33,783 bases of DNA from Bacillus bingmayongensis (GTDB lineage Bacteria > Bacillota > Bacilli > Bacillales > Bacillaceae_G). The notes beneath the pieces are model-generated. The model ran no database searches, was not told the origin of the DNA, and saw only the letters and a program-made list of their open reading frames with translations. Of the stretch, positions 24,244-31,764 are shown piece by piece. Location: the NCBI RefSeq assembly GCF_000299035.1, contig NZ_JH921525.1, positions 1-33,783 of the forward strand, in the 5' to 3' direction. The first letter of the stretch is position 1. Each line of letters begins with the position of its first letter. The translations under genes and the position numbers were made by a program.

Positions 24244-24281
24244 GGGGTACCGCCAACATTTTGACATAAAACCCACGCTAA
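24244..24281 (+). repeat. Tn3-family left terminal inverted repeat
   Basis: 38 bp, GGGGTACCGCCAACATTTTG to CACGCTAA. It pairs with 31727-31764 with two mismatches (positions 3 and 35). Confidence 0.9.
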
Positions 24282-24299
24282 GACAATAATTGAAAAATG

Positions 24300-24336
24300 A
24301 AAACTGATTTCTCTTACGATAAGGGAAATCAGTTTT
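24300..24336. terminator. hairpin terminator just inside the transposon
   Basis: 12-bp stem AAAACTGATTTC/GAAATCAGTTTT with further CTCTTA..TAAGGG pairing, T-rich tail. It would insulate the passenger genes from outside transcription. Confidence 0.7.
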
Positions 24337-24358
24337 TATTTTTAATTTTTACCCAAGT

Positions 24359-24414
24359 ATTGACAATAAAATAAAATTACTAAATAATATATATAATAAT
24401 TTAGTTAGTAAATT
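24359..24414 (+). promoter_or_regulatory. epimerase promoter with two MarR-like boxes
   Basis: TTGACA at 24360-24365 with AT-rich -10 options (TAATAT at 24385). ATTACTAAAT at 24376-24385 and TTAGTAAATT at 24405-24414 (an inverted form of the same motif) overlap and follow it. A matching ATTTACTAAAT is found upstream of MarR and OYE (25881). Confidence 0.5.
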
Positions 24415-24439
24415 AAATATATTCAAAGGAGGGTTTGTC

Positions 24440-28108: not shown

Positions 28109-28132
28109 TAATTAACTTCAGGAGGGGATAGA

Positions 28133-28687
28133 ATGGGGAAAATTTTTGGATATGCCCGAGTTTCTACTCAAGATCAAAATTTAGAATTACAAATGGATGC
28201 CTTACAAAAAGCTGGTGCAGCTGTTATCTACAAGGAAAAAATGACGGGCACAAAAAAAGAGCGTTTAGAATTAGAGCAACTCTTAAAAGCAATAAGTGAA
28301 GGAGATACAGTGGTTGTCTATAAACTAGATCGTATCTCAAGATCTACCAAGCACTTAATTGAATTAGCAGAAACCTTTGAGGAAAGAAAAGTGAATTTTG
28401 TTTCTATAAGTGACAACATTGATACGTCAACTGCAATGGGTCGTTTTTTCTTCCGTACCATGGCAAGTATTGCTGAGTTAGAACGGGATATCATCAGTGA
28501 ACGCACTAAAGCAGGATTACAATCTGCAAGAATTAGAGGTAGAAATGGCGGAAGACCAATTAAGGATCCAAAATTAGTAGAACGAGCATTAAAACTACAT
28601 GCTTCTAAGGAGTACAGTATAAAAGAGATTTCAGATATGACTGGTGTTAGTAAATCTGTGTTGTATCGAGCTATAGAACGTATATAG
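28133..28687 (+). CDS. tnpR: serine resolvase (TnpR)
   Basis: 184 residues. FGYARVSTQDQN holds the nucleophile Ser11; VVVYKLDRISRSTKHLIELA and TAMGRFFFRTMASIAELERD are the other catalytic-domain blocks; the C-terminal HTH is YSIKEISDMTGVSKSVLYRA. Length is standard. AGGAGGGGAT precedes the ATG. It resolves cointegrates at the adjacent res site and is followed 21 bp later by TnpA. Confidence 0.93.
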   Translation: MGKIFGYARVSTQDQNLELQMDALQKAGAAVIYKEKMTGTKKERLELEQLLKAISEGDTVVVYKLDRISRSTKHLIELAETFEERKVNFVSISDNIDTSTAMGRFFFRTMASIAELERDIISERTKAGLQSARIRGRNGGRPIKDPKLVERALKLHASKEYSIKEISDMTGVSKSVLYRAIERI

Positions 28688-28708
28688 AAATGAACAGGAG
28701 GCACTATC

Positions 28709-31666
28709 TTGTATTTGAGAGCAAGAGAACTACTTACACCTGAACAACGCATAGATTTCATGACAATTCCAGCTGATATTAGTGAGTGGGAAATAGCTAC
28801 CTCCTACACTTTATCACCACATGATTTAGAAGTGATTAAACGTCGAAGACGAGACTATAATAGACTTGGATTTGCCGTTCAGTTATGTCTGTTTCGCTTT
28901 CCGGGATGGACATTATCGGATGTTAAAGAAATACCTAAGTCAGTTTTACGGTTTATTGCCAATCAAATTAAGGTTGATCCCTTGGAATTTCAATCATATG
29001 CCGAACGGGAACAAACTAAGCATGAACATATGGTTGAAATTCGGAAAGAGTATGGTTATAAGAACTTCTCAACAAGAGAGTATCGTAACATCTCTTCTTC
29101 TTTACTAAGTCATGCAATGGAAAATGAGAACTCAATGTATTTGATTAGGACGGCTATCGAAGAAATGAAGAAGCGAAAAATTATTCTTCCAGCTATGTCA
29201 ACTATTGAACGTCTGGTTTGGCAAACACGTCATCGAGCTGAACAAAAAATATATAAGATATTATCGCGGTCTCTATCCTCTTTGCAAAAGGAAAGTTTGA
29301 TCCTAATGACGGAGCCTACTCTGGATAGTGGAAAAACACCTCTTGCTTGGTTAAAAGAAATCCCAGGACAATCTTCACCTGATGCCTTCTTAAAAGTCAT
29401 TGAACGATTAGAGTATGTGAAAAAACTTGAGTTATCTATTGATTGTAATGACATACACCCGAACAGGCTTCTTCAATTGTCGCGTTTAGGTGCGCGATAT
29501 GAACCTCATTCCTTCCGAAGATTTAATGAGTCTAAAAAATATGCCATTCTTGTGGCTTATCTCTTAAATCTCAGTCAAGACTTAATTGATCAAGCCATTG
29601 AAATCCACGATCGCCAAATTATGATCTTGCAGTCAAAGGGCCGTAAGGCCCAAGAAGAAATGCAGAGACAAAACGGTAAAACAATTAATGAAAAAATCAT
29701 ACAGTTTGCTGACATCGGTGCTGCACTAATAAAGGCAAGAAATGAAGGATTGGATCCGTTTACTACATTGGAAACCGTCATGTCCTGGGAGAAAATGATT
29801 GCATCGGTGGAAGAGGCCAAACAATTATCACGTCCTATCGACTATGATTATTTAGATCTTTTAGAAAGACGATTTTTTTATCTTCGAAAATATACGCCTA
29901 CCTTACTTAAATCACTAGAATTTCAATCGACCCAATCAGCAAAACCATTGATAGAAGCACTAGATATTATTAAAAATATGAATGATTCAGGTAAACGAAA
30001 AGTTCCAGAAGGAGCTCCTCTTGGGTTTGTCTCTAACCGGTGGCAGAAACACGTACATGACGAGGATGGAAGCATCAATCGACATTATTATGAAATGGCA
30101 GCATTAACTGAATTACGAAATCATATTCGATCTGGAGATGTATCTGTTCGAGGCAGTAAACAACATAAAGATTTTGAAGAGTATCTAATTCCAAAAGAAG
30201 AATGGTTAGAAACTGGATTACATCATAATCGCCTTGCTGTAGGCAGTTCTGCTGAAGAATATTTGACCGAAAGAATGGATTCTCTACGAAAACGGCTGCA
30301 AGCCATGTCCGATAACGTTGATGAACTAGAGGGTGTCAGTATAGATAAGGGGAAATTTCGCATTGATCGTCTCGAAAAGGATACTCCAGAAGAAGCCAAG
30401 ACGTTTAGTTCATCCCTATACAGCATGTTGCCACGGATAAAACTAACGGATCTGCTAATGGAAGTTGCAAGTTGGACAGGTTTTGATGAACAATTTATTC
30501 ATGCTTCTTCAAGCCGTCCTCCCAAAGGAGAGGAAAAGTCGATCTTATTGGCCACGCTAATGGCGATGGGGACAAATATTGGCTTAACAAAGATGGCAGA
30601 TGCTACACCCGGAATTACCTATCACCAAATGGCTCATGCTTCTCAGTGGCGTCTTTATGATGATGCGATGAATAAAGCTCAGGCAACACTTGTGAATTTC
30701 CATCATCAGCTTGCTTTATCTTCATATTGGGGAGATGGAAGTACTTCCTCTTCAGATGGTATGAGAGTACAAGTTGGCGTGTCTTCTCTACATGCAGAAT
30801 CAAATCCTCATTATGGTTCTGGTAAAGGAGCTACGATTTATCGCTTTACAAGTGATCAGTTTTCTTCTTACTACACAAAAGTCATTAATACCAACGCTCG
30901 TGACGCAGTTCATGTGATAGATGGATTGCTGCATCATGAATCTGAATTGAATATTGAAGAACATTATACAGACACGGCTGGGTATACCGATCAAGTTTTT
31001 GGACTGAGCCATCTACTTGGTTTTCGTTTTGCACCTCGCCTTCGAGATCTGTCTGATACTCGACTATATGTAATAGATAAACCTGGTGAGTTTCCAACAA
31101 TAGAAAAATTACTACGAGGGCGTATTAATACAAAGGTTATTCTAGAAAACTATGATGATGTTTTACGTCTAGCCCACTCCATTCGGGAAGGGAAAGTTTC
31201 TGGTTCACTTATTATGGGAAAGTTGGGGTCCTATTCAAGGCAAAATCGTTTGGCTACAGCACTCCGTGAAATGGGTAGGATTGAAAAAACAATCTTCATA
31301 TTAGACTATATTTCAAATGAAGCAATACGTCGTCGAATTCAACGAGGGTTAAACAAAGGGGAGGCTATGAATGCCTTAGCACGAGCCTTATTTTTTGGAA
31401 AACGAGGTGAACTCAGGGAAAGAGCGTTACAAGACCAGCTTCAACGTGCAAGTGCATTAAATATCATCATTAATGCTATCACTGTATGGAATACAGTTTA
31501 TCTCACAGAAGCAACAAAAGTTCTAAGTGAAAAAGGGATACTACGAGAGCAAATGATAAAACATATTTCACCATTAGGATGGGAACACATTAATTTCTTA
31601 GGAGAGTATACTTTTGACATAAAAAAAATGACAGGACTCAACTCTTTAAGACCATTAGATCGATAA
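28709..31666 (+). CDS. tnpA: Tn3-family transposase (TnpA)
   Basis: 985 residues, beginning with TTG seven bases after AGGAGG. The N-terminal region (RIDFMTIPADISEWEIATSY, HDLEVIKRRRRDYNRLGFAV) is the usual end-binding domain. Catalytic residues lie in YWGDGSTSSSDGMRVQV (Asp, about residue 675), TDTAGYTDQVFGL (about 753) and RGLNKGEAMNALARALF (Glu, about 885). Full length for the family, with no frameshift seen. It acts on the 38-bp ends. Confidence 0.95.
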   Translation: MYLRARELLTPEQRIDFMTIPADISEWEIATSYTLSPHDLEVIKRRRRDYNRLGFAVQLCLFRFPGWTLSDVKEIPKSVLRFIANQIKVDPLEFQSYAEREQTKHEHMVEIRKEYGYKNFSTREYRNISSSLLSHAMENENSMYLIRTAIEEMKKRKIILPAMSTIERLVWQTRHRAEQKIYKILSRSLSSLQKESLILMTEPTLDSGKTPLAWLKEIPGQSSPDAFLKVIERLEYVKKLELSIDCNDIHPNRLLQLSRLGARYEPHSFRRFNESKKYAILVAYLLNLSQDLIDQAIEIHDRQIMILQSKGRKAQEEMQRQNGKTINEKIIQFADIGAALIKARNEGLDPFTTLETVMSWEKMIASVEEAKQLSRPIDYDYLDLLERRFFYLRKYTPTLLKSLEFQSTQSAKPLIEALDIIKNMNDSGKRKVPEGAPLGFVSNRWQKHVHDEDGSINRHYYEMAALTELRNHIRSGDVSVRGSKQHKDFEEYLIPKEEWLETGLHHNRLAVGSSAEEYLTERMDSLRKRLQAMSDNVDELEGVSIDKGKFRIDRLEKDTPEEAKTFSSSLYSMLPRIKLTDLLMEVASWTGFDEQFIHASSSRPPKGEEKSILLATLMAMGTNIGLTKMADATPGITYHQMAHASQWRLYDDAMNKAQATLVNFHHQLALSSYWGDGSTSSSDGMRVQVGVSSLHAESNPHYGSGKGATIYRFTSDQFSSYYTKVINTNARDAVHVIDGLLHHESELNIEEHYTDTAGYTDQVFGLSHLLGFRFAPRLRDLSDTRLYVIDKPGEFPTIEKLLRGRINTKVILENYDDVLRLAHSIREGKVSGSLIMGKLGSYSRQNRLATALREMGRIEKTIFILDYISNEAIRRRIQRGLNKGEAMNALARALFFGKRGELRERALQDQLQRASALNIIINAITVWNTVYLTEATKVLSEKGILREQMIKHISPLGWEHINFLGEYTFDIKKMTGLNSLRPLDR

Positions 31667-31726
31667 ACTCCTGAGCCGGTACCCTTAGAGTAAAGGATAT
31701 CGGGTTTTTATATGGTAAAAAATGTA

Positions 31727-31764
31727 TTAACGTGGGTTTTATGTCAAAATGTTGGCGGTACTCC
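31727..31764 (-). repeat. Tn3-family right terminal inverted repeat
   Basis: 38 bp; complement reads GGAGTACCGCCAACATTTTG to CACGTTAA. Two differences from the left end. Confidence 0.9.

Follow-up and report, generated by a model that had tools for sequence, protein, structure and literature searches.

The cargo of Tn3-family transposons is best known in the form of antibiotic and metal resistance genes, and the locus described here raises the question of how such an element came to hold a regulated cassette of putative redox genes, and to what use. The element lies at positions 24244-31764 of a stretch of 33,783 nucleotides from Bacillus bingmayongensis (contig NZ_JH921525.1, positions 1 to 33,783, assembly GCF_000299035.1; the whole stretch is referred to as the window). 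Between its left end and a res-like region it holds the genes for a short-chain dehydrogenase/reductase (SDR)-type protein, a MarR-family regulator, an old yellow enzyme (OYE) and a protein encoded by an open reading frame (ORF) that we call ORF5, followed by tnpR and tnpA (Table 1). Our conclusion is that a Tn3-family transposon, its transposase of the Tn4430 type and its resolvase of the serine type, has probably captured an SDR-OYE module under MarR autoregulation, of a kind found on Bacillota chromosomes. The regulated enzyme module would then have been taken whole, promoters and operator-like sites included, and the capture of the cargo is testable, because its counterparts on chromosomes are identified and the left junction is located.

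Counterparts of the cassette outside transposons

Relatives of the SDR were sought in 84,980 species genomes by a scan seeded with exact short peptides, the counts of which are lower bounds. At least 21 were recovered, five of them close (73-86%) and the other 16 at 22-63% over their best segments; the loci examined were the five close ones and three distant ones from Paenibacillales. The DNA of Metabacillus fastidiosus (L004) is collinear with window positions 24395-27090 at 87.3%, and that of Paenibacillus glacialis (L006) with positions 24359-27081 at 79.9%. These two loci are like the window in the three genes, their order, their orientation and the operator-like motif, and unlike it in that the OYE is whole (a single frame of 370 aa) and in that transposon ends, tnpA and tnpR are absent from the fetched flanks. 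Collinearity extends over 24346-26184 in Brevibacillus (79.3%) and over 24346-25908 in Paenibacillus FSL A5-0031 (75.4%), and comes in two parts in Sporosarcina (24357-25926 at 78.7%, then 27226-27784 at 72.5%), where the order is SDR-MarR-ORF5 without OYE; in these three the SDR-MarR part is collinear and no whole OYE is present. Across the five close loci, neither tnpA nor tnpR was detected in the fetched flanks (E 1e-3), nor was a transposon end (at most 12 mismatches of 34). That three of the four genes occur in this order in other genera, with no transposon around them, points to capture. On the left, the junction is located to within about ten bases, as the homology of the transposon end extends to 24341 (in Cytobacillus plasmids) or 24351 (in the element of Alkalihalophilus pseudofirmus OF4) and the homology of the cassette starts at 24346. 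On the right side, cassette homology stops at 27791 and transposon homology resumes at 28049.

The core of the module is the MarR-SDR pair. It had initially been proposed that the four passenger genes form one functional set, and this is supported for SDR and MarR, which adjoin each other in 8/8 outside loci (in the three further Paenibacillales loci the SDR is at 55-57%) and share a motif in all six loci compared; it is less so for the OYE, complete in two of the five close loci and broken in the window, and holds weakly for ORF5, which adjoins the cassette in one of the five, namely Sporosarcina, beside MarR. The pair is patchy in the sampled Bacillota genomes: the SDR occurs in 1/397 Bacillales genomes at E 1e-60 (Metabacillus itself) and, by profile at E 1e-70, in 4/296 Paenibacillales genomes, one of which is P. 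glacialis.

With respect to regulation, a TTGACA box lies upstream of both SDR and MarR in 6/6 loci (the window and the five close ones), and each of them carries the motif TTACTAAATTAATTA, exact or nearly so, at both promoters: at MarR it spans the -10 box, at SDR it overlaps this box or follows it directly. In four of the six loci none of 200 shuffles attained the score of the best match between the two promoter regions; one did so in P. glacialis (L006) and six in L008. Among the seven exact copies of the motif in the five outside genomes, six are in the cassette and the seventh is elsewhere in P. glacialis. A MarR gene beside its target, with one motif at both promoters, is the layout of an autorepressor; this layout is conserved, with the motif as the putative binding site of MarR.

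ORF5 was considered as a further member of the regulon and rejected, because elsewhere it stands without the cassette and only Sporosarcina has it beside MarR. Its relatives occur in 10 of the 397 sampled Bacillales genomes (E 1e-15), and five further loci that were opened contained neither SDR nor MarR; two of these (L042 and L043) share one neighbourhood and the other three differ. Metabacillus has two ORF5 loci apart from the cassette, one of them on another contig beside an ORF read as an insertion-sequence transposase. No NCBIfam model matched the protein, and its best Pfam match (E 0.13) stayed below the cut-off; residues Cys23, His69, Trp79, Trp80 and Trp91 are invariant across nine aligned sequences.

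The broken OYE gene and the role of the module

The initial annotation listed four passenger genes within the element, of which SDR, MarR and ORF5 are intact, whereas the OYE is split over two frames and is thus broken in this copy. The OYE homology runs overall from 25970 to 27081, the first frame being homologous over some 210 residues, and the OYE profile is matched separately at positions 1-207 and 310-341 of 342; an intact FMN oxidoreductase barrel, as expected of an old yellow enzyme, is absent. In comparison with Metabacillus, the ratio of nonsynonymous to synonymous substitution rates (dN/dS) is 0.129 for the N-terminal and 0.045 for the C-terminal part of the OYE, and 0.16 and 0.15 for SDR and MarR, respectively. 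Since the ratio is low in both OYE parts, the break is either recent or a sequencing error. That it stems from sequencing or assembly, and that the cassette is in fact complete and active, is a tentative possibility to which this strong constraint and the 95% identity of the C-terminal part to the Metabacillus protein lend support; nevertheless, a recent genuine break would give the same picture, and the OYE is truncated or not found in three of the five close outside loci, so that its loss is common in the module.

Under the reading of a captured autoregulated module, MarR dimers would bind the motif and block the transcription of SDR and marR until the regulator is released by an inducer, probably a small molecule of reactive or aromatic nature, upon which the SDR, plus the OYE where intact, would be made and would modify the inducer. 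If the sequence is right, the SDR arm alone would still be able to work in this copy. The OYE and MarR families are associated with reactive-electrophile defence, and a redox detoxification role (directed at electrophiles or quinones) is plausible on the basis of these family roles. The SDR has the TGxxGxxG motif of classical and extended SDRs; in the place of the catalytic Tyr of YxxxK it has Phe129, and F129-x3-K133 is invariant in all six sequences compared (motif placed by eye). We take it to be an SDR-type protein of atypical kind. Its predicted structure is poor (mean pLDDT 54.3).

Alternatively, the module could serve another pathway, for example the breakdown of a plant or lignin aromatic, or resistance to one natural product. 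Such a role would agree with the absence of the classical Tyr, with the nearest models of the MarR protein (BilQ, 48.8 of 125 bits, and HpaR, 43.6 of 121.2 bits, both far under the cut-offs) and with the Sporosarcina copy, which adjoins thiolase-, acyl-CoA dehydrogenase- and CoA-ligase-like ORFs (named by eye). We consider it somewhat unlikely, as the OYE and the nitroreductase-like ORFs beside two of the eight outside loci (named by eye) fit the reduction of electron-poor compounds. A more far-reaching idea, distinctly improbable in our view, is that MarR and the Tyr-less SDR together form a small defence unit, complete in itself and so far undescribed, which transposons have carried from genus to genus among the soil bacteria of the Bacillota; it would be directed against one specific class of reactive natural products, with the OYE as an optional helper. 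A literature search among open-licence PMC papers yielded no function for the MarR-SDR pair and no description of such Tn3 cargo.

The transposon, its ends and the search for other copies

The element has related inverted repeats of about 38 bp, a Tn3-type DDE transposase and a resolvase gene (tnpR), as befits the Tn3 family, and the 7.5-kb unit with 38-bp ends that had been described at the outset is borne out in these respects. The ends are identical at 36 of 38 positions and their longer arms at 50 of 63. TnpA, which is complete, matches the profiles DDE_Tnp_Tn3 (1.3e-154) and NCBIfam Tn3 (1023 bits, cut-off 500) and can be aligned over residues 5-983 with the transposase of Tn4430 (PDB 7qd8/7qd4; 1376 bits); the only solved structures that match it at E 0.001 are Tn4430 transposase entries. 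Among the at least 5000 plasmid records listed, the closest TnpA is 74.3% identical, and two of the records show 80-90% over a shorter stretch. The element would move replicatively via a cointegrate, to be resolved by TnpR at res.

The first 34 bases of the left terminal repeat recur exactly in two Cytobacillus plasmids. An inward promoter-like site (TTGACA-18-AATAAT, 24261-24290) begins within this repeat, and the terminator-like hairpin that directly follows it, related sequence of which is present at the matching place in the Cytobacillus and Alkalihalophilus element ends, may insulate the cargo. The hairpin also recurs downstream of the OYE in Metabacillus (L004 10785-10838, 87% over 54 bases); its stem was found nowhere else in the Metabacillus genome nor in seven other genomes (at most two mismatches). 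That the Metabacillus cassette adjoins a decayed transposon end was considered and rejected, since the neighbouring end sequence scored no better than shuffles in most comparisons (observed score reached by 201, 19, 437 and 262 of 500 shuffles in one scoring and by 36, 8, 410 and 166 of 500 in the other).

The same passenger block between identical ends, a check suggested with the initial annotation, was found on none of 72,556 plasmids. These gave no match of 60% or more for the SDR (228 records) or MarR (25 records), the best SDR match among those listed being 39.6%. At the DNA level the plasmids matched only the left end of the transposon; at lower identity there were matches to the OYE, to this end and to the res region, but in no case was most of the query covered. 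The cassette as plasmid cargo was rejected accordingly; on Priestia plasmids the OYE is present by itself (67-68% identity in DNA), and the one such locus opened had no match to SDR or MarR. Viral contigs contained no relative of ORF5 or SDR and no copy of the hairpin, and phage records gave two weak SDR matches (28% and 23%). As to an empty site, the right flank matched in 381 of 397 genomes, where the matches listed cover only a small spore protein gene.

Several observations weigh against the capture of a regulated module by a single mobile unit. No second copy of the element was found in the 72,556 plasmids or, by peptide seeding, in the 84,980 species genomes, and recent movement is therefore not shown. 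The repeat-bearing region before tnpR, initially read as res-like sites, aligns with its counterpart in the Alkalihalophilus OF4 element but poorly with the res regions of the Listeria and Paenibacillus elements. In the window, the three motif matches at up to two mismatches are all at the two cassette sites (one on both strands) and the chance mean is 1.16, yet 15 of 100 shuffles reach three; at up to one mismatch, the five outside genomes hold 26 sites, 11 of them within the cassette, versus 27 for the reversed control. No promoter was recognised for the OYE. The SDR without its usual catalytic Tyr, and an OYE that nature can dispense with, both argue against a simple detoxification story. 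Finally, no 5-bp target duplication was found (left AATTA, right TATAA), which leaves insertion as a single unit unproved; we treat such a duplication as a mark of clean insertion and not of Tn3-family membership. That the unit did not arrive by a single transposition, its ends stemming from two related copies that recombination or an adjacent deletion brought together, would account for this lack, which contrasts with the TAATA on both sides of Cytobacillus units with near-identical ends, but is unlikely given the near-identity of the two ends, the same placement of cargo left of tnpR-tnpA in the related Listeria and Alkalihalophilus elements, and the fact that flank mutation after insertion would also wipe out the duplication.

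The remainder of the window is dense in insertion sequences (1002-1793, 11894-12559, 16937-17620, 9016-10577 and 21198-22646), comprising three related IS6-type transposase ORFs, an IS3-type pair and an IS4-type transposase. It also holds a distant ANT(9)-like nucleotidyltransferase gene (19618-20397; 72 bits, cut-off 340) and, beside it, a TetR-type regulator gene (20413-20997; weak AcrR, FadR and BetI matches).

Table 1. Features of the element, with positions in the window
Feature	Position	Strand	Evidence or remark
Left terminal inverted repeat	24244-24281	+	36/38 bases identical to right repeat
Terminator-like hairpin directly inside left end	24293-24343	+	-26.4 kcal/mol, z -9.3
SDR promoter-like site, TTGACA-17-AATAAT	24360-24388	+	TTGACA box also in five close outside loci
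Operator-like site, palindrome TAATTTA-N5-TAAATTA	24397-24419	.	Downstream of SDR -10 box
SDR-type protein, 297 aa, GTG start, TGxxGxxG motif	24440-25333	+	ORF and profile
Hairpin between converging SDR and MarR genes	25331-25364	.	z -8.9
MarR-family regulator, 162 aa	25354-25842	-	ORF and profile
MarR promoter-like site, TTGACA-17-AATAAT	25878-25906	-	Promoter boxes
Operator-like motif across MarR spacer and -10 box	25883-25897		Inside MarR promoter-like site 25878-25906
OYE N-terminal part, 252-aa frame	25970-26728	+	Homology in this frame to ~26.6 kb
OYE C-terminal part, 132 aa, other frame	26683-27081	+	Homology
ORF5, 180 aa, protein family of unknown function	27249-27791	+	ORF
res-like region, repeated TCCCTAAAAT/TTAGGGAA motifs	27975-28112	+	Repeats, upstream of tnpR
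TnpR serine resolvase, 184 aa	28133-28687	+	Pfam Resolvase, 5.7e-45
TnpA, Tn3-family transposase, 985 aa, TTG start	28709-31666	+	ORF and profile matches
Right terminal inverted repeat	31727-31764	-	Partner of left terminal repeat

Comparison with known elements

For the OYE, the Staphylococcus aureus protein OfrA serves as a guide to function only; in contrast to the OYE in the window, OfrA is connected in the available text with neither a mobile element nor a MarR gene. Among elements with related ends, a 2430-bp unit was observed in Cytobacillus firmus plasmid p1 (L059, 9014-11443) and C. oceanisediminis pBO1 (L060, 9006-11435), two opened out of four Cytobacillus plasmid records that matched the left end. 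Its ends are almost identical to those of the window element and are flanked by TAATA on both sides, and it is annotated with lspA and a C39 peptidase, with no transposase inside, i.e. it is a non-autonomous unit that resembles a mobile cassette.

Two further elements have cargo left of their transposition genes. The mercury-resistance element of Listeria innocua (NZ_CP095722, L003) is like that of the window in its left end (33/34), TnpA (66.7%), TnpR (65%) and the position of its cargo left of tnpR-tnpA, and differs in the nature of that cargo and in its poorly aligning res region; its right end was not found at up to 10 mismatches. The element on pBpOF4-02 of A. pseudofirmus OF4 (L002) has a TnpA at 72.4%, a TnpR at 86.9% and a matching res region and end, and carries, unlike the window element, cadmium genes left of tnpR; its left end was not found in the fetched stretch at up to 13 mismatches.

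The initial annotation called the element Tn4430-like, which fits the transposase and not the recombinase. Tn4430 of Bacillus thuringiensis has, in the available text of the sources, the tyrosine recombinase TnpI and no known passengers (PMC7157771, PMC13001229), whereas the window element has a serine Resolvase domain in TnpR, and four passengers. According to the available part of PMC7157771, TnpR is usual among Tn3 members and TnpI is listed only for Tn5401, TnBth4 and Tn4430; a serine resolvase is therefore nothing out of the ordinary. The transposon as a vehicle is thus of an ordinary kind, while its cargo is unusual, and it is in the cargo that the novelty lies.

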